Source: a virus. Taken from it: a DNA stretch of 30,356 nt. The position numbers and the translations under genes are program-made. Shown here in pieces: positions 1 through 10,789 of this stretch. The stretch's first letter is position 1, and each line of letters opens with the position of its first letter. The notes beneath the pieces were generated by a model. The model searched no databases. It saw only the letters and a list, made by a program, of their open reading frames with translations, and was not told the origin of the DNA. The stretch lies in the IMG/VR virus record IMGVR_UViG_3300020596_000084, positions 1 through 30,356 of that record; one strand, 5' to 3'.

Positions 1-337
1 CATTGTACAGTTGCAAATCTGTTGCCTGGCTACGCGCGCGCAGCTCAGCTAGGTCGAGCATTGTGGCCGCCTTTGGTGTCGGATCTGCAAGCTGCGACAG
101 TACTTGTCTCGCGCAAAAAATTGCGAAAAGTTTTTGAGACCTGAAATCACTAGACTTGAGATCACTAGACTTGATATCAAGCAAATTTGAAACTACCCAG
201 ATCCGGTCGACTGCCGGACAGGCAGTCTCTTTCAGCACTTCAAGGATTGTGCCGGTCCACTCGCGACTGATATATTTTATCGGATCGTAACACGGCTTTA
301 GCCGCGAGATATCTTTATACGAAATGCTTAAATCCAT
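1..337 (-). CDS. Hypothetical protein B', partial, paralogue of the 746-1294 gene
   Basis: The first 112 codons are visible; the 3' end lies outside the window. The start is the ATG at 335-337, four bases after the TAG of the preceding gene, with AGGAGAT as ribosome site inside that gene's last codons. The N-terminus MDLSISYKDI, then CYDPIKYI, WTGTILEVLK, RIWVV and FCARQVL, matches the 746-1294 protein position by position, so the two are duplicates. Between WVV and FCARQ this copy has about ten extra residues (SSDLKSSDFR-like) that come from a 15-bp tandem duplication at 146-175. Function is unknown. The pattern of an RLF..FCAR block followed by an AE..A segment reminds me of a domain seen in phage and planctomycete proteins sometimes labelled putative immunity protein; that is recall, not a search result. 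Confidence 0.75.
   Translation of the reverse strand, partial: MDLSISYKDISRLKPCYDPIKYISREWTGTILEVLKETACPAVDRIWVVSNLLDIKSSDLKSSDFRSQKLFAIFCARQVLSQLADPTPKAATMLDLAELRARSQATDLQLYN
146..175. repeat. 15-bp tandem repeat inside gene B'
   Basis: Two adjacent 15-bp units (146-160 and 161-175) start ATCACTAGACTTGA and differ only at the last base. The unit is a multiple of three, so it adds residues without breaking the frame, and the paralogue at 746-1294 lacks it. Confidence 0.9.
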
Positions 338-341
338 TCTT

Positions 342-635
342 CTAATCTCCTATCGGCCGTAACTGACCTTTTAAATCGGCTTTTATTTTTTCAAGTTGAT
401 CTTTTGAAAAAGAAAAGCCGCAGTGAGCCGCTGATCGGTCGGCTAACTCAAGTGTTTCCTTGACACGTGGGCTCAGTGTTTCGCATTGTTTAAAATATGC
501 GTTGATAATATCTACGCCTTCTTGATCACCACTGAACCACATCTGGTGCCGCGCCAGGCAGACTAGTTTCATTTGCAGCGCAAGTTCGCTTAGTTCGCTG
601 TCTCTTTTTTTGTTGTCGTGAACGTTTTCTGTCAT
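342..635 (-). CDS. Hypothetical protein A' (97 aa), paralogue of the 1299-1562 gene
   Basis: This small soluble protein has no recognised domain. From residue 17 on it matches the 87-aa protein at 1299-1562 in 62 of 81 positions (my count), with shared blocks LARHQM/QARHQM, GDQEGV, FKQCE, GFSFSKD and LEKIKADLKG. The DNA is nearly identical at the 3' end, so the duplication looks fairly recent. Its N-terminus (MTENVHDNKKRD) has no counterpart in the other copy; that part and the upstream region are instead made of a 21-bp iterated sequence. No good Shine-Dalgarno lies before the ATG at 633-635, so the start is less certain than for the neighbours. The next gene begins four bases after the TAG, so the two are translationally linked. 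Confidence 0.75.
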   Translation of the reverse strand: MTENVHDNKKRDSELSELALQMKLVCLARHQMWFSGDQEGVDIINAYFKQCETLSPRVKETLELADRSAAHCGFSFSKDQLEKIKADLKGQLRPIGD

Positions 636-707
636 ATTGTGAACGCTATACCTTTTTTCGTGAACAGATGCAACCTTTTCGTGAACGATACCCGGTTTTT
701 CGTGAAC
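603..707 (-). repeat. Five-copy GTTCACGA array, exact 21-bp period
   Basis: On the minus strand GTTCAC occurs five times. On the plus strand GTGAAC starts at 618, 639, 660, 681 and 702, so every step is exactly 21 bp, two helical turns. The three upstream copies extend to GTTCACGAAAA; the two at the gene side are GTTCACAATA (spanning the ATG of gene A') and GTTCACGACA. A single further GTTCACGAC lies at 4081-4089 in the operon leader. Between units the sequence is not conserved, and there is no dyad in the core. This looks like a helically phased protein-binding array (operator or iteron type). It overlaps the start of gene A' and could control it. Confidence 0.8.
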
Positions 708-718
708 AGTACCTATTT

Positions 719-746
719 TTCCTCATATCGCACCGCTGGTGGTGCC
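719..746 (-). repeat. Gene-boundary element A
   Basis: Minus-strand order: GGCACCACCAGCGGTGC, then GATATGAGGAAAAATA. It sits directly after the stop of gene B and before the 21-bp array. It resembles the other boundary elements but lacks the ATG, which appears displaced by the array. Confidence 0.65.
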
Positions 747-1294
747 TACTCAAGTAATTCAATCAAGTAAGCGACTTGCTGTTGCGATAGAGTCTTTTTT
801 AGTTTATTGTTCATGTTATTAATGCCTGATTTTTGCGTGATTAGCCTGTGCGTGTACGCAGTTACGCGTTGTTGCGAGATATATAAAGCTACGTTACACG
901 CGATAGCCAGATCCTCGTCAAGATGCTCGTCGTTTGCGTTTTGTTGTTCGCTTTCGATGCGCCGCAAAACGCGCAGCATATGATCCATTGCGGATTCCAG
1001 CTCGTCGAACGACGCTGTGCCGTGAGCGTATTTTTCGGCTACGTCAATAGCTTCAACAGCTTCCGTGCACTCGCCAAGTGTTTTCAGTATTTGCCGCGCA
1101 CAAAAAACTAGGAATAGTCTCTGCGGTTTTTTATTCAGAAACCGTTTAACTACCCAAAGCCGATCTTGCGCGGGGACATGTGCCATTTTCAGCACGTCAA
1201 TAAGCGTGCCTTGCCAGTCGCTATCGACGTATTTTATCGGGTCGTAACAAGGCTCTAGCGCTACGATATCTTTATATGTGATGCTTAAATCCAT
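746..1294 (-). CDS. Hypothetical protein B (182 aa)
   Basis: I chose the ATG at 1292-1294 (MDLSITYKDI) because the duplicate copy at 1-337 starts at the same residue and the spacing to the preceding stop (TAG AAGA ATG) is conserved. A longer reading from 1324 would run into the upstream gene. Visible blocks are EPCYDPIKYV, W.GTLIDVLK, VPAQDRLWVV, RLFLVFCARQIL, then a helical stretch with DVAEKYAHGTASFDELESA, and a C-terminal half without recognised motifs. There is no signal peptide or membrane segment. It is the downstream partner of gene A, and the pair is duplicated as a unit further left. Function is unknown; the weak resemblance to proteins labelled putative immunity protein is a recollection only. 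Confidence 0.8.
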   Translation of the reverse strand: MDLSITYKDIVALEPCYDPIKYVDSDWQGTLIDVLKMAHVPAQDRLWVVKRFLNKKPQRLFLVFCARQILKTLGECTEAVEAIDVAEKYAHGTASFDELESAMDHMLRVLRRIESEQQNANDEHLDEDLAIACNVALYISQQRVTAYTHRLITQKSGINNMNNKLKKTLSQQQVAYLIELLE

Positions 1295-1298
1295 TCTT

Positions 1299-1562
1299 CT
1301 AATCCCCATCCGGCCGTAACTCACCTTTTAAATCTGCTTTTATTTTTTCAAGTAGATCTTTTGAAAAAGAAAAGCCGCTGCGAGCCGCTGCTTGGTCAAC
1401 TATCTCAAGTGTTTCCTTGAAATCAGGACTCAGTTTTTCGCATTGCTTAAAGAATGCGTTGATAATACCTACGCCTTCTTGGTCACCCATGAACCGCATC
1501 TGGTGCCTGGCCTGGCAGACTATCTTCATTTGCAGTCCAAGTTCGTTTGGCTCTTCATTCAT
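1299..1562 (-). CDS. Hypothetical protein A (87 aa)
   Basis: Starts at the ATG at 1560-1562 (MNEEPNELGLQMKIVC) behind a clear ribosome site, GAGGAAAAATAAAA. It is the paralogue of the 342-635 product (62 of 81 aligned residues identical). Predicted small, soluble, mostly helical, with two conserved cysteines (KIVCQARHQ and FKQCEKL). Upstream of gene B with a four-base gap, so A and B probably are co-translated and may act together. The start region (GGAAAAATNAAAATGAAYGA) is shared with the starts at 3849 and 4020. Confidence 0.8.
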   Translation of the reverse strand: MNEEPNELGLQMKIVCQARHQMRFMGDQEGVGIINAFFKQCEKLSPDFKETLEIVDQAAARSGFSFSKDLLEKIKADLKGELRPDGD

Positions 1563-1617
1563 TTTTATTTTTCCTCTTTTTGCATTAGCTGGTGGTGGCG
1601 TCCTTTTTTTCTTCGCT
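1563..1617 (-). repeat. Gene-boundary element D
   Basis: Minus strand: CGAAGAAAAAAAGGACG, CCACCACCAGC, TAATGCAAAAAGAGG, AAAAATAAAAATG. The 5' half matches element C and the 3' half matches element E almost base for base, so it looks like a recombinant of the two. It supplies the ribosome site of gene A. Confidence 0.7.
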
Positions 1618-1630
1618 CGTTAAACAAAAG

Positions 1631-1924
1631 TCATCCGGATTGCTCATCCACTATTTTCACGATAACGCTACTCCAGTCAGCATTTGATGCCTCTCGCAAA
1701 TCAGACAGGCCAATAGTTTCAAACAATCGTTTTATTCTTCCGCTTGTAGATGCCGAAGAGCCGGGGCTTGTCATTTTCCCGTCGAACTCGTGAATTAGGT
1801 CGACTTCGTCAATCGCAAAAGTCAGTTGACCCTTGTATTTTTCCTTTGCATCCTCAAGAGAGGCCGCTACAACGAAGTAGCGCTCTGTCTGGATTTCTGT
1901 TAGTTCTATTCCGAAAATTGGCAT
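1631..1924 (-). CDS. Hypothetical protein (97 aa)
   Basis: The start is the ATG at 1922-1924, directly after the TAA of a 10-codon minigene, so it is probably translated by coupling; no separate strong ribosome site lies closer. The N-terminal part (MPIFGIELTEIQTERYFVVAASLEDAKEKYKG) looks like a small alpha/beta fold with the E..RYFVVAASLEDA pattern common in small phage and prophage proteins that modify or bind nucleic acid ends, but I cannot assign it. The C-terminal half has a Ser/Thr-rich linker (SPGSSASTSG). No membrane segment. Function unknown. Confidence 0.7.
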   Translation of the reverse strand: MPIFGIELTEIQTERYFVVAASLEDAKEKYKGQLTFAIDEVDLIHEFDGKMTSPGSSASTSGRIKRLFETIGLSDLREASNADWSSVIVKIVDEQSG

Positions 1925-1957
1925 TTAGCCCCCTTTATGCGTAACGCTTAAATTCAT
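1925..1957 (-). CDS. 10-codon leader minigene MNLSVTHKGG
   Basis: ATG at 1955-1957, ribosome site GAGGATTAGAAGA, ten codons, then TAA directly abutting the next ATG. Its first residues and DNA (AGAAGAATGAATTTAAGC) match the starts of the B genes (MDLSI.YKD) and of the methyltransferase (MNILSATYT). It is either a coupling leader or the remnant of a third B-type gene start fused to a different gene. Confidence 0.5.
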   Translation of the reverse strand: MNLSVTHKGG

Positions 1958-1965
1958 TCTTCTAA

Positions 1966-2010
1966 TCCTCATATCACACCGCTGCTGGTGCCGTATCTGA
2001 TTCTTCGGTC
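1966..2010 (-). repeat. Gene-boundary element B
   Basis: Minus strand: CGAAGAATCAGATACGG, CACCAGCAGCGGTG, TGATATGAGGATTAGAAG. It overlaps the 3' end of the 59-aa gene and gives the ribosome site of the minigene. Its left half matches element E, its right half matches element C. Confidence 0.65.
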
Positions 2011-2153
2011 GTTAAATTCGGTCTTGCGCGCGATAACACCTCCGGCGTTTCGTTGTAGACGCTGCAAAACCCTGCTTCAAAATGATCCTTTAGGCCAATA
2101 AAATCAAAGTCTGGGCTATTACAAAATGGACAGTTGATGTAATCGTCGTTCAC
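1974..2153 (-). CDS. Small CPFC zinc-binding-like protein, GTG start (59 aa)
   Basis: A GTG at 2151-2153 overlaps the methyltransferase stop as GTGA and has a strong ribosome site, GAGGAGAG, nine bases upstream. The product begins MNDDYINCPFCNSPDFDFI, with Cys8-x2-Cys11, followed by His24 and Cys30 (KDHFEAGFC). Such short CPFC proteins are common in phages; Lar-type restriction-alleviation and Com/Ogr-like zinc fingers begin similarly. A full four-cysteine set is not visible, so zinc binding is uncertain. Position directly behind a DNA methyltransferase would fit a DNA-modification or antirestriction role; that is inference. The last codons run into boundary element B (TAPAAV, TGA). Confidence 0.7.
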   Translation of the reverse strand: MNDDYINCPFCNSPDFDFIGLKDHFEAGFCSVYNETPEVLSRARPNLTTEESDTAPAAV

Positions 2154-3532
2154 TTTCTTCTCTCCTCATATCGCACCACTGGTGGTGCCGTCCTTTTTTT
2201 CTTCGCTTTAGATGGAACTGTCAGATTCGCTTCGACTAATGCTGCGGCGACACAGGGGCTGACTGAGTTTCCGACCATGCGCACCTGCGCTGTCTTGCTC
2301 AATTTCTTACCTTTTAATTCAGGCGCAATAATGTAATTTTTCGGGAAACCTTGAGCAGCAAAGAGTTCATGCGGCTCAAGCATTCGCATTCCTATATCTG
2401 CAATTATGTAATCGACATTTGCGATAGTGACCAGGGCCAAGCGGTCTTTTGTCGTGATTGTGTGCGCCGGTTCGTCGAGTGATTGCCCGCTGCCAGTTGT
2501 GAAATACTTCAGTAAGAAAGCTCGCACTAGCCCAGTTCCACCGCCGGCCATTACTGTACCAAGCGGCTTGTCTAGCACTCGCGGCTCTTGTCCCACTCGC
2601 TCACCGTAACCGGTTTGAATCAGCGTCGGCACCACTAGGCCGTGTGCATCTCGACTAGCTGTAAGTGTTTTAAAAGGCTCATCTAAGCCCTGGCCCCTGA
2701 AGTATTCGCCCTGGTGATTGCAGGTGACAATAAACGGCTTTTTTGCATCGATTACGTACTTCTGGATGCCTTTAGCAATTCGTCTTAAAGTATTGTCAGC
2801 TAGCGGTTTCTTCCGCTGGTAAATCGAAGGGCAAGGCAACGACCAATCAATAATTTCCGCCGCAGTTCGCCAAGGCTTCAGCTGACCATTCTTTACGCCG
2901 ATACTAGTTGGCGCTCCGTGTGTAGCTTCTGGCCAAACAATCGGCAAACCATCGCTTCTCGCAATCAAGAAAAGCCGCTTTCTTATTGTAGGAGCGCCGT
3001 AATCACACGCTTTAAGTATTTTATATTCAACTTTGTAGCCTAGGCGCTCTAAAGCAGTACAAAATGCTTTGAATGTTTTGCCCTTGTTTTTCAGACAAAG
3101 CATTCCTTCTTTAAGCGGTCCCCAAGTGACAAACTCTTCAACATTTTCGAGAAGTATTATTCGAGGCTTTACAGTTGCCGCCCAGCGCACCGCTACCCAA
3201 GCCAGATCTCTGACCTCTTTCGACCTGGGCGCACCACCTTTCGCTTTTGAAAAATGCTTGCAGTCGGGACTGAACCACGCCAACGCCACCGGCTTACCTT
3301 CGGTAATTACCGACGGCACAACGTCCCAAACAGATTCGCAATAGTGTCTGGTCAACGGGTGATTTGCTTCATGCATTACCAGAGCTTCTTGGTTGTAGTC
3401 GATTGCAATATCGACTGTATAGCCAGCGAGCCCAATTCCTGTTGATGCCCCGCCGCCGCCGGCAAAGTTATCTACAATCAATTCTTGAAACAAGCCAAGT
3501 TGGCGAGTATATGTAGCGCTTAAAATATTCAT
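2150..3532 (-). CDS. DNA (cytosine-5-)-methyltransferase, 460 aa
   Basis: Transfers methyl from S-adenosylmethionine to C5 of cytosine in a specific DNA site. The C5-methylase motifs are in order: motif I VDNFAGGGGASTGIGLAG (about 20-37), motif IV FSPDCKHFSKAKGG with catalytic Cys91 (the phage-type SPDC form of the usual PPC), motif VI ENVEEF (129-134), motif VIII APTIRKRLFLIAR, and at the C-terminus MLEPHELFAAQGFP and VRMVGNSVSP (motifs IX and X). The target region carries three LDEP/LDKP..T repeats (LDEPFKTLTAS, LDKPLGTVMAG, LDEPAHTITTK), typical of this family. Complete, so probably active; the target site cannot be read from sequence. The ATG overlaps the upstream stop as ATGA and the stop overlaps the next start as GTGA. 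No cognate endonuclease is next to it, which fits an orphan phage methylase protecting against restriction. Confidence 0.95.
   Translation of the reverse strand: MNILSATYTRQLGLFQELIVDNFAGGGGASTGIGLAGYTVDIAIDYNQEALVMHEANHPLTRHYCESVWDVVPSVITEGKPVALAWFSPDCKHFSKAKGGAPRSKEVRDLAWVAVRWAATVKPRIILLENVEEFVTWGPLKEGMLCLKNKGKTFKAFCTALERLGYKVEYKILKACDYGAPTIRKRLFLIARSDGLPIVWPEATHGAPTSIGVKNGQLKPWRTAAEIIDWSLPCPSIYQRKKPLADNTLRRIAKGIQKYVIDAKKPFIVTCNHQGEYFRGQGLDEPFKTLTASRDAHGLVVPTLIQTGYGERVGQEPRVLDKPLGTVMAGGGTGLVRAFLLKYFTTGSGQSLDEPAHTITTKDRLALVTIANVDYIIADIGMRMLEPHELFAAQGFPKNYIIAPELKGKKLSKTAQVRMVGNSVSPCVAAALVEANLTVPSKAKKKRTAPPVVRYEERRK
2161..2210 (-). repeat. Gene-boundary element C with perfect CACCACNNGTGGTG
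   Basis: Minus strand: CGAAGAAAAAAAGGACGG, CACCACCAGTGGTG, CGATATGAGGAGAG. Here the element lies in frame inside the methyltransferase C-terminus (encoding ...TAPPVVRYEE) and provides the ribosome site for the 59-aa gene. The palindrome 2173-2188 has 7-bp perfect arms around two bases. Confidence 0.8.
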
Positions 3533-4020
3533 TCTTGACCGATTTCTGCTAACGTGACCAGCAGTCGGTTTCGCTCGATTGTTTTCAAAACTCGCTGCTG
3601 CAAGTCAGCGTCACGGCACATTTGCAATAGTGCTGCAAACGTGTCGGGATTTTCGGAAGTGCTCATTTCTATGCGCACGTATTTCGGCTCCTGATTGCTG
3701 CTGGTGGTAACGCAGCAAAATGACACTGTCGCGGTGAGCGGCAGTAGGTCTGGTTTCTGCAAATACTCTGACTCCTGCTTCTGGTGATGCAGCTGCTTTG
3801 TCAGTACTGCTACACGGTCTACTGTAGCGTTGATCTGATGTTCATTCATTTTTATTTTTCCTCTTTTTGCATTAGCTGCTGTTGCCGTATGTGATTCTTC
3901 GATCATTGTGATCAAGTGAGCAAGTCGCTCTACCCACTCCGTTGATAAAGCAGCTTCTTGCCTTAGCGCGGCCGGTAGCGGCAAGATTCGGATTAACGGT
4001 TGTCCAGCCGGGTCGTTCAT
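3529..4020 (-). CDS. Hypothetical protein (163 aa), possibly two genes fused in frame
   Basis: First gene of the leftward operon. ATG at 4018-4020 with ribosome site GGGGAAAAATCAAA. Residues 1-40 (MNDPAGQPLIRILPLPAALR...) and 58-163 (MNEHQINATVDRVAVLTKQLHHQ...) are separated by boundary element E, which here is translated as EESHTATAANAKRGKIK. The internal ATG at 3847-3849 has an excellent ribosome site (GAGGAAAAATAAAA) identical to that of gene A, so a 106-aa product from 3849 is likely made as well, or instead. The C-terminal part has a coiled-coil-like KQLHHQKQESEYLQ segment and an IERNRLLVTLAEI end. Function unknown. The stop overlaps the methyltransferase start (ATGA). Confidence 0.65.
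   Translation of the reverse strand: MNDPAGQPLIRILPLPAALRQEAALSTEWVERLAHLITMIEESHTATAANAKRGKIKMNEHQINATVDRVAVLTKQLHHQKQESEYLQKPDLLPLTATVSFCCVTTSSNQEPKYVRIEMSTSENPDTFAALLQMCRDADLQQRVLKTIERNRLLVTLAEIGQE
3850..3905 (-). repeat. Gene-boundary element E, translated
   Basis: Minus strand: CGAAGAATCACATACGG, CAACAGCAGCTAATGC, AAAAAGAGGAAAAATAAAA, then ATGAATGAA. The 3' half equals element D. Here it is in frame and has no stop, joining two open frames. Confidence 0.65.
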
Positions 4021-4075
4021 TTTGATTTTTCCCCATAGCAGTGACTAGCACCAGCAGTGGTGCCGTTCTTTTTGG
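4021..4075 (-). repeat. Gene-boundary element F
   Basis: Minus strand: ACCAAAAAGAACGG, CACCACTGCTGGTGC, then GGGGAAAAATCAAAATGAA. The same order of palindrome, ribosome site and first codons as at other junctions, but more diverged. It precedes the first gene of the operon. Confidence 0.55.
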
Positions 4076-4080
4076 TTTCT

Positions 4081-4196
4081 GTCGTGAACGTGTCCACTCT
4101 AGAGATAGCTCGTAGCTGCTATCTCTAGAATGAAGGTGTGTTCGACGACGAACTAATTTTTCGGTGGACACGACCGAGTCGTATTTAATTGACTCG
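4081..4196 (-). promoter_or_regulatory. Structured leader of the leftward operon, candidate three-way junction
   Basis: Nested perfect inverted repeats. P1 is CGTGTCCAC (4089-4097) with GTGGACACG (4164-4172), 9 bp. Directly abutting it, P2 is TCTAGAGATAGC (4098-4109) with GCTATCTCTAGA (4118-4129), 12 bp with an 8-nt loop. P3 is GTTCG (4139-4143) with CGAAC (4148-4152). Next to P1 lies CGAGTC (4175-4180) with GACTCG (4191-4196). P1 enclosing P2 and P3 gives a three-way junction. If leftward transcription starts near 4220, this is a roughly 200-nt 5' leader before the first start codon at 4020. It could be a cis-regulatory RNA, or a set of protein-binding dyads in DNA. One GTTCACGAC copy (4081-4089) touches P1. 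Confidence 0.6.
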
Positions 4197-4227
4197 ATAA
4201 CAAAAATTATTGCAAGCGCGCGAGCGA

Positions 4228-4256
4228 AATACAAGAGAGCTTGAAAGTTTTTACAA
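4228..4256 (-). promoter_or_regulatory. Weak candidate promoter for the leftward operon
   Basis: On the minus strand TTGTAA (4256-4251) and TGTATT (4233-4228) are separated by 17 bp, each matching four of six consensus bases. The position fits: it would place the whole structured leader in the 5' untranslated region. The sequence match alone is poor. Confidence 0.25.
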
Positions 4257-4519
4257 TCTATATACAGATGACTGGCACACGTGACAGCACCCGCCGCAGA
4301 AAACAGTCAAAAGCGCCAAAAGCAGCACAGGCGCATAGATACCTCATGTGATAGAGATGTGATGAGATTCGGCGGCTTAGTCTGTTAGTCGCAATAGTAG
4401 CAACGTTTTTTTTGATATATTGTGCATATCTAACGTGTCTTACTCAGTGTGATCTACTCGATATTGATTGTATATTTTTTATCCTCCGGACTTTTTTACC
4501 CCCTTAGCGATATACGCTA

Positions 4520-4563
4520 TATCCTCGATTGCACTTATCTATATCCTCAATTGTACTTATCTA
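4520..4563. repeat. 22-bp tandem repeat, two units
   Basis: Units 4520-4541 and 4542-4563 read TATCCTCRATTGYACTTATC plus TA and differ at two positions. The TATCCTC start links them to the TATCCTCCGGA family. Next to it TAGCGATATACGCTA (4505-4519) is a 5-bp-arm inverted repeat. Confidence 0.85.
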
Positions 4564-4582
4564 TATTGCGATATTTTCACTC

Positions 4583-4616
4583 CAAAAAAAACCTCTCTCG
4601 AAAAATTTTGCGAGGT
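4583..4616 (-). terminator. Weak terminator-like hairpin on minus strand
   Basis: The minus strand reads CCTCGCAAAATTTTTCGAG followed by AGAGG and eight T. The stem is short and A/T-rich and the T run starts five bases after it, so this is only a possibility. Confidence 0.25.
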
Positions 4617-4644
4617 ACCCCATAAATCATTTTGAGAAACACAA

Positions 4645-4659
4645 TTTGCTCTGAGCAAA
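4645..4659. promoter_or_regulatory. Operator-like palindrome TTTGCTCTGAGCAAA
   Basis: Perfect 7-bp arms around one central base. The spacing is too tight for a good RNA hairpin but right for a dimeric DNA-binding protein. TATATAAA follows at 4670-4677, so the palindrome would overlap the -35 zone of a rightward promoter, if one is there. Confidence 0.5.
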
Positions 4660-4741
4660 AAAAGACCACTATATAAAATGTTGTACGTCTACTTGCTCGT
4701 TAGTATTATCAACGTATACGCAATAGATACCAGCAAAATTC

Positions 4742-4804
4742 TATCCTCCGGCTATCCTCCGGATCCGAGGGTAGTTATTGCCCATTCCGGAGGCACGGAG
4801 GATA
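4742..4804. repeat. Long hairpin made from opposed TATCCTCCGG copies
   Basis: TATCCTCCG (4742-4750) pairs with CGGAGGATA (4796-4804), and CCTCCGGA (4756-4763) with TCCGGAGG (4786-4793): 17 bp of perfect pairing with a small internal loop and a 22-nt terminal loop. Confidence 0.8.
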
Positions 4805-4924
4805 GATCACTCCTAATAGTCCTTTTGGAAAATATCAATAATATTGATACTGAAATCAAGGTTTTTACTACTCACTACTAATCGACAAAAGGTTTAGTGG
4901 GCACTTTTATCCTCCGGAATGGGC
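4780..4924. repeat. Perfect 14-bp inverted repeat, 117 bp apart
   Basis: GCCCATTCCGGAGG (4780-4793) and CCTCCGGAATGGGC (4911-4924) are exact reverse complements. The left arm also pairs within the 4742-4804 hairpin, so two alternative structures compete for it. The right arm is followed by TTTTT (4925-4929), terminator-like for a rightward RNA. Confidence 0.8.
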
Positions 4925-5050
4925 TTTTTGGTACTTCGATCAGCCAACCATGCCGTTTTGCGCTGGAAATCTATCCTCCGGAAATTTGAAAAGGCCGTTT
5001 TTCGTGCTATTTTTGACCGTAATTGACTACTCAATCGAGAGGCCAGACTC

Positions 5051-5487: not shown

Positions 5488-5765
5488 TTGAGTATATTTA
5501 ATAAACACTACGTTTGACTATTGATTATCGATAATCAATGGTCGCGTCATCGCAATGGCAATCCTCGGAGAACCGCACAGGCTGGCACTCTCGGGGCCTG
5601 TCCAATTGGTTAGAAGGGGGTATGGGGGGTCGAAACCGGCTCTCTGTCTGGCTCTAAGCCGCGCGTCTCGACCCCGTTCATTCGCGCATTTTAGAGAGTA
5701 AGGGGGTTTGACGGCAGAATTAATCTCATTTAGACTGCCTGAGCACGCAAGCGAGGCCGAAAAAG
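5411..5765. other. Non-coding region before the terminase genes, candidate cos region
   Basis: No gene seen. It contains the HNH 3'-end copy, a 20-bp palindrome, an inverted repeat GGGGTCGA (5626-5633) with TCGACCCC (5668-5675) enclosing CGGC/GCCG (5637-5640 and 5658-5661), a repeated GGCTCT, and two similar G runs (AAGGGGGTATGG near 5614, AAGGGGGTTTGA near 5700). In HNH-encoding cos phages the packaging site lies beside the terminase genes, so this is the most likely place; the cut site itself cannot be read. Confidence 0.4.
5520..5539. promoter_or_regulatory. Perfect 20-bp palindrome
   Basis: ATTGATTATCGATAATCAAT reads the same on both strands without spacer. It lies directly behind TTGACT (5514-5519), a good -35-like hexamer, but no matching -10 is present at the right distance. 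It may be an operator, or part of the packaging or recombination site. Confidence 0.7.
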
Positions 5766-9942: not shown

Positions 9943-10579
9943 ACAATTCTCTACTAGAGGCATCCAGCTTTTCGATTCGAAAAACAAAGACGACGGCGGC
10001 CTACCTGTGATTTCGGGTTACGCAGTCAAGTTTAACGCTTATTCCAGTCCCTGGTACGGCATCAAGGTAATAGTTGACCAGAATTTTTTTAACGGCATTT
10101 TAGACGACCCTGATCTGTGTGTGCTGGCGTCGTACACGCATGACACTGACGGCTTAAATATAGTTGCGCGATATCAACCTAGCGCCGGGGTAGAAAAAAT
10201 AAAACTGTCTGTTGACGAAATCGGCCTGAAGTACGAAATGGCACCAGTTAACACACAGCTTGGTCGCGATCTCGTTGAGCAGATTCGATTCGGTAATGTG
10301 CAAGGCGTATCGATGGGTGTTGAGGTCGCTGAGGATGATTGGACGGGCCTAAAGGACGGTTATCAAGTCAGACGATTAGTGCAATGCGGGATGCTCGATC
10401 ACTTCGCATTCACTTCTTGTCCAGCCTTTGCGAGTTCCTCTGCTGGAGTATCAGAATTTTCGATTTCTTCACCAGAAATGAGAGAGTTTTATAAGAGTAA
10501 GCAAAAGGAAAAGGCACCAAATCTGATGCCAGCGGAATATTTTGAAAACAAACTTCGGTTGATTGAGCTTGACAGTTAA
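9926..10579 (+). CDS. Prohead maturation protease, HK97 gp4-like (S78/U35)
   Basis: Cleaves the N-terminal delta domain of the capsid protein inside the prohead. The family pattern is visible: VISGYAVKFNAYS at the N-terminus, SYTHDTD with the likely catalytic His72, a GLKYEMAPVNTQLGRDLVEQIRFGNVQGVSMGV block with likely nucleophile Ser129, and RRLVQCGMLDHFAFTSCPAF, where most relatives have L.EVS..T.PAY. The third catalytic acid therefore appears changed or shifted (Asp158). ATG at 9926 with GAAGGA upstream, inside the end of the portal gene. Next is the capsid gene, as in HK97. Confidence 0.9.
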   Translation: MTKTCEQFSTRGIQLFDSKNKDDGGLPVISGYAVKFNAYSSPWYGIKVIVDQNFFNGILDDPDLCVLASYTHDTDGLNIVARYQPSAGVEKIKLSVDEIGLKYEMAPVNTQLGRDLVEQIRFGNVQGVSMGVEVAEDDWTGLKDGYQVRRLVQCGMLDHFAFTSCPAFASSSAGVSEFSISSPEMREFYKSKQKEKAPNLMPAEYFENKLRLIELDS

Positions 10580-10789
10580 AAAATTCCAGTTTATCATTTA
10601 CGCAAATTGAATCCGGCTCAGCGGTGCAAAGATTTTTTCAAATCGGCACACTGACTGACAAGCAAATAGCCCGCTAGTTTTCACTAAGCGCCGTGGTTGC
10701 AAAAATCGTCTAACACAGACGGTATCAGTAAACCATGGCGCTTTTGGCACGTGTTCACCTGATGCCGCACACGGAAAAGGTGAACACAA
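10580..10789 (+). promoter_or_regulatory. Structured leader of the major capsid gene
   Basis: In this 210-bp gap, stem 1 is AAGCGCCGTGGTT (10686-10698) with AACCATGGCGCTT (10731-10743), 13 bp including one G-U pair, with inner hairpin CGTCT/AGACG (10707-10711 and 10717-10721). Stem 2 is GTGTTCACCT (10751-10760) with AGGTGAACAC (10778-10787), a perfect 10 bp with a 17-nt loop. Stem 2's 3' arm holds AAGGTG, the apparent ribosome site of the capsid gene, so folding would hide it. A 5-bp hairpin GATTT/AAATC lies at 10631-10644. Possible roles: translational control, mRNA stabilisation or processing at the most expressed gene. Confidence 0.7.

Follow-up and report, generated by a model that had tools for sequence, protein, structure and literature searches.

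The window analysed here, by which we mean the whole stretch of DNA, is the entire IMG/VR virus record IMGVR_UViG_3300020596_000084 (30,356 bases), which is probably a genome fragment; judged from its sequence, the source is a novel siphovirus, its best terminase match reaching ~34% identity among the matches listed. One set of genes reads rightward and encodes an HNH endonuclease, small and large terminase, portal, protease, major capsid, connector and tail proteins, together with a lambda J-like fibre and an endolysin. The leftward set encodes a 163-aa protein, a C5 DNA methyltransferase and small proteins without clear family (two duplicated). The leftward methyltransferase operon and the rightward HNH/terminase operon are separated by an intergenic gap of 1,030 bases (~1 kb), which houses the element described here; the first leftward start codon (4020) lies 69 bases downstream of the left edge of the element. 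The features of this region are as follows.

2150-3532, minus strand: C5 DNA methyltransferase gene, which comes after the 3529-4020 gene in the leftward operon
3529-4020, minus strand: gene that opens the leftward operon, with its start codon at 4020 and a 163-aa product of no known family
4048-4063, minus strand: fifth hairpin of the putative leader, GCACCA-CTGC-TGGTGC, a copy of the gene-border module of the leftward operon
4082-4089, minus strand: GTTCACGA motif adjoining P1, with four more exact copies at 616-707
4089-4097 (CGTGTCCAC) and 4164-4172 (GTGGACACG), minus strand: P1, 9-bp closing helix of a three-way junction (9/9 pairs)
4098-4109 (TCTAGAGATAGC) and 4118-4129 (GCTATCTCTAGA), minus strand: P2, 12-bp hairpin (12/12 pairs) with the 8-nt loop TCGTAGCT
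4140-4144 (GTTCG) and 4149-4153 (CGAAC), minus strand: P3, 5-bp hairpin with a 4-nt loop (ACGA on the plus strand)
4175-4180 (CGAGTC) and 4191-4196 (GACTCG), minus strand: P4, 6-bp hairpin with a 10-nt loop
4206-4234, minus strand: promoter-like site TTGTAT-17-AATAAT with TG before the -10 (sigma-70 matrix; predicted start ~4199)

Several neighbouring sequences deserve description in their own right. The reading frame at 3529-4020 has an internal GAGGAAAAATAAAAATG start at 3849, which resembles that of gene 1299-1562 and is preceded by a repeated gene-end module, and possibly represents two genes fused in frame; the structure predicted for its product is too poor (mean pLDDT 51) to make a case for an autoregulator. 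The module, GGCACCACCAGYGGTGCGATATGAGGA, recurs at gene ends and starts of the leftward operon (730-755, 1583-1608, 1976-2001, 2173-2198 and 4048-4073), forms a hairpin in most copies and partly encodes a C-terminal TAPPVV-like tail. A two-gene unit of no known family is tandemly duplicated (2-337, 342-635, 746-1294 and 1299-1562, minus strand), with 300 bp at 83% DNA identity and proteins that are 74% and 50% identical. Upstream of gene 342-635, and overlapping its start, an iteron-like array at 616-707 contains five GTGAAC/GTTCAC motifs at an exact spacing of 21 bp, four of which read GTTCACGA. On the other side of the element, the A+T-rich sequence that precedes the HNH gene (4477-4983) carries TATCCTCCGGA-type repeats in both orientations at no fewer than six sites, which are possible operator, origin or packaging (cosB-like) sites, and between the HNH and small terminase genes there is a 28-bp near-perfect palindrome (5516-5543, GACTATTGATTATC/GATAATCAATGGTC), a possible cos or operator site.

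The preliminary description of this DNA had read P1 to P4 from the sequence as perfectly paired helices of 9, 12, 5 and 6 bp with P2 abutting P1, and this proved correct to the base: no base separates P1 from P2, and all 32 of the 32 pairs are Watson–Crick, with no G-U. It had also held that such pairing is far above chance and had suggested folding both strands against shuffled sequence. When positions 4070-4210 were folded as RNA, the plus strand gave -53.3 kcal/mol (z -6.15) and the minus strand -51.1 kcal/mol (z -6.98), and on neither strand was any of 200 shuffles as stable. A scan of the entire window (1,010 folds of 120 nt, both strands, 25 shuffles each) returned its lowest z at 4081 on the minus strand (-7.2), followed by 10681 on the plus strand (-7.0) and 4081 on the plus strand (-5.5). 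P2 is the only perfect hairpin of at least 10 bp (loop 3-10) within the 30-kb window; a perfect 12-bp hairpin with such a loop was present in 4 of 400 dinucleotide shuffles of the whole window, and a 12-bp hairpin nested in a 9-bp helix in none of the 400. Chance is therefore no serious explanation of the fold, although it should be borne in mind that the window had been read before the feature was chosen. The P3 loop (ACGA on the plus strand) is in addition fully complementary, on both strands, to UCGU of the P2 loop, a coincidence of ~2% that is compatible with a possible loop–loop contact between P2 and P3.

Inspection of the reading frames indicates that the element is non-coding. All but one of the six frames of 4081-4200 hold stops, and the sole open frame, on the minus strand, could start only from a TTG (4234) that precedes the predicted start of transcription; coding sequence was rejected as an identity for the element. 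A tRNA-like identity was likewise rejected, as were a hammerhead-type ribozyme (the sequence lacks a CUGAUGA core and has no Rfam match) and a pair of intrinsic terminators, since P2 and P4 have no T tail on either strand; P3 does have a T-run tail on the plus strand (TAATTTTT) but comprises only 5 pairs.

Promoters were sought with a simple sigma-70 matrix of approximate values. The rightward sites ranked 1, 2 and 5 in the window have predicted starts at ~10604 (the best), 5743 and 5020, directly upstream of the capsid, small terminase and HNH genes respectively, and this position of the top rightward sites argues that the matrix works in this phage. These placements suggest that host-type promoters serve this phage and that no rightward transcript spans 4089-4196, since an mRNA from the likely rightward promoter at 4986-5013 (start ~5020) would not include the element. 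The site at 4206-4234 ranks 52 of all placements in the window and is the best leftward one of the gap, although its match is modest (-35 TTGTAT). Its predicted start at ~4199 is 3-4 bases from the outer edge of P4, which would thus begin at ~+4; the chance of an equally good site within 10 nt of that edge is ~2% (52 sites, both strands, 30 kb). There is consequently modest support for the view, already taken in the preliminary description, that the element lies in the leader of the leftward operon, here predicted to be ~180 nt long (from ~4199 to the first start codon at 4020). No intrinsic terminator-like site was seen on the minus strand within 1-4020, so that none is in view for such a leader to control.

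The behaviour of the four helices in longer predicted transcripts is not uniform. In leftward RNA from 4199, P2 and P4 have pairing probabilities of at least 0.98 at all tested lengths. P1, with a probability of 0.96-0.98 in the isolated element, falls with the position of the 3' end of the leftward RNA, from 0.96 at 4081 to 0.84 at 4040, 0.22 at 4020 and 0 at 4000, because P2 and the P3 strand gain other partners and the 5' arm of P1 is taken up by the beginning of the first gene. The forced junction is then ~3.4 kcal/mol above the optimum. The three-way-junction RNA originally put forward is predicted to fold in the isolated element, but P1 is predicted to be open in the full-length leftward leader, which weakens the case for a static junction on that RNA. 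Either the junction could form first and then open, or the P1 dyad could be unrelated to the leftward RNA.

The second-ranking fold of the window belongs to the capsid gene, before which positions 10569-10789 (plus strand) hold a near-consensus promoter (TTGACA-17-TATCAT) followed by a highly structured leader of 186 nt (z -7.0). Within that leader a helix of 9-10 bp, GTGTTCACC/GGTGAACAC (10751-10759/10779-10787), differs from P1 by one compensated pair and fully hides the capsid Shine–Dalgarno sequence (unpaired probability ~0). By a rough, post hoc count such likeness has a ~1% chance among non-coding helices; it may be due to chance and we treat it as a lead only.

Searches for relatives covered both RNA families and genome collections. 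No match to Rfam 15 at or above the gathering threshold was found in the window, and a relaxed search gave nothing but microRNA-type matches attributable to chance, which stood far below threshold (E 0.7-1.6). No homologue of the element was found in a DNA search of phages and plasmids, nor one in IMG/VR of the exact 21-mer spanning P1/P2. IMG/VR was also queried with the proteins of the first leftward gene, large terminase, portal, duplicated small genes and methyltransferase, and GTDB genomes were searched by terminase alignment. Among the matches listed, terminase relatives from IMG/VR and GTDB reached at most ~34% identity and methyltransferase relatives up to 62%; the methyltransferase-matching loci had no match to any other leftward gene. 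A single-sequence covariance model run over ~2.8 Mb of distant-relative loci recovered only the window itself, and comparison of the gap with these loci by blastn and nhmmer gave nothing meaningful. With no homologue in the collections searched, among the matches listed, there is no covariation for or against the fold. The element is new as a sequence, not as a kind.

Our preferred interpretation, to which we assign a probability of roughly 0.45, is that the element is a structured 5' leader of the leftward (methyltransferase) mRNA that would both protect the 5' end and serve in binding or switching. An mRNA with few unpaired bases at its 5' end undergoes 5'-end-dependent decay more slowly. 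Our working model is that host RNA polymerase starts leftward at ~4199 and that P4 would form at once at the very 5' end, shielding the mRNA from decay of this type. P2, P3 and P1 would fold next into the three-way junction as the leader emerges; P2 and P4 would then persist, while P1 and P3 could open as soon as transcription has copied the beginning of the first gene. The junction would accordingly be a transient, factor-dependent or switch-like element acting in cis on the leftward operon. The simplest effect to be expected of such a leader is 5'-end protection by P4, the junction being additional and either transient or factor-bound. The presence of a second strongly structured leader, that of the capsid gene, in the same genome favours this reading. 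In a more elaborate and very improbable form of the model, the early leader would be bistable, the junction forming first and the 5' arm of P1 then pairing with the first-gene start, and a single factor would recognize the GUGUYCAC/GUGRACAC helix both in this leader and in that of the capsid gene, tying the two operons together at the post-transcriptional level.

Two of the observations that weigh against a leftward leader each point to a different alternative. The first is the complete lack of G-U among the 32 pairs, which would be natural in a DNA dyad but is unusual for an RNA shaped by evolution. In the main alternative, which would agree with the operator complex named in the preliminary description, it is possible, if on balance doubtful, that the arms are dyad-symmetric protein sites acting at the DNA level (operator, origin, or packaging/recombination sites) in a divergent intergenic region, with the hairpins as a by-product; a DNA dyad accounts for the perfect Watson–Crick pairing equally well, and the plus strand remains strongly structured when folded with DNA parameters (-29.1, z -5.6). 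The gap is also crowded with other symmetric or repeated sites (the TCCGGA-containing repeats at 4477-4983), positions 4084-4097 (GTGAACGTGTCCAC) form a near-palindrome of the type GTGRAC-RY-GTYCAC, GTGAAC recurs with 21-bp spacing within 616-707, and GTGRACAC occurs five times in the window, four of them in the two leader helices. However, the arms of P1 are 66 nt apart and those of P2 8 nt, and their sequences differ, which is unlike a repeated operator; DNA sites have no need of the nested arrangement, and no DNA-binding regulator was identified in the window.

The second observation is that the predicted plus-strand fold is steady in all contexts (P1 0.98-0.99 in every flank tested) while the leftward leader loses P1. 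This, with the lower folding energy of the plus strand, would be expected if the functional molecule were a plus-strand RNA, acting either as an antisense small RNA against the leftward leader or as a rightward leader situated far upstream. We consider this unlikely, as the best plus-strand promoter-like site just upstream of 4089 ranks only ~560 and the likely rightward promoter is at 4986-5013. P3 can be extended on the plus strand only, by six weak pairs (three A-U and three G-U), which we do not take as evidence of strand.

An RNA that makes RNA polymerase termination-resistant, as put does in phage HK022, would suit an element directly after the predicted leftward promoter, as putL is, and one that presents a first hairpin and then further hairpins. 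We judge this improbable: positions 4020-4300 had no match to any phage record at E up to 1 (in a collection that may not include HK022), put consists of two irregular stem-loops in ~70 nt (PMC9378689) and not a perfect three-way junction, and the minus strand offers no terminator-like site within 1-4020 to be read through. Least convincing is a relic of a small mobile palindromic (MITE-like) element, since the internal hairpins are indeed flanked by exact 9-bp terminal inverted repeats (4089 and 4172), but the borders show no target-site duplication and no second whole copy was found in the window or in the phage and plasmid collections searched.

Should the element prove to be an RNA leader, it would be a structured one with no sequence relative, from an almost unsampled virus group, and one of two strongly structured leaders in a single phage; RNA-level control of the leftward operon and of the capsid gene would then be directly testable. 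If it is no more than a set of DNA dyads, it belongs to the ordinary regulatory DNA of phages.

Three known types of system allow the proposed leader to be placed. The put RNAs of HK022, the two stem-loops of which bind the beta' zinc-binding domain (PMC9378689), include putL, a structured RNA that comes immediately downstream of a siphovirus's leftward early promoter, a position that the proposed leader would share. The element differs in its size (~116 nt), in its four perfect helices with a three-way junction, in having no sequence match to put and in having no terminators in view. Protection of the 5' end is known for leaders of the ompA/papA type (from literature cited in PMC3997798). If transcription starts at 4199, P4 extended by two pairs would leave 1-4 unpaired 5' bases, as in those stabilizing stem-loops; the present element adds a three-way junction, and its start site is a prediction. 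Finally, among leaders that sequester the Shine–Dalgarno sequence, the capsid leader of the same phage (10604-10789) is comparable in being long (~180 nt) and structured. Its helix covers the Shine–Dalgarno sequence, whereas P1 lies far upstream of the leftward one, but the GUGUYCAC/GUGRACAC helix is common to both, with one C-G to U-A exchange.
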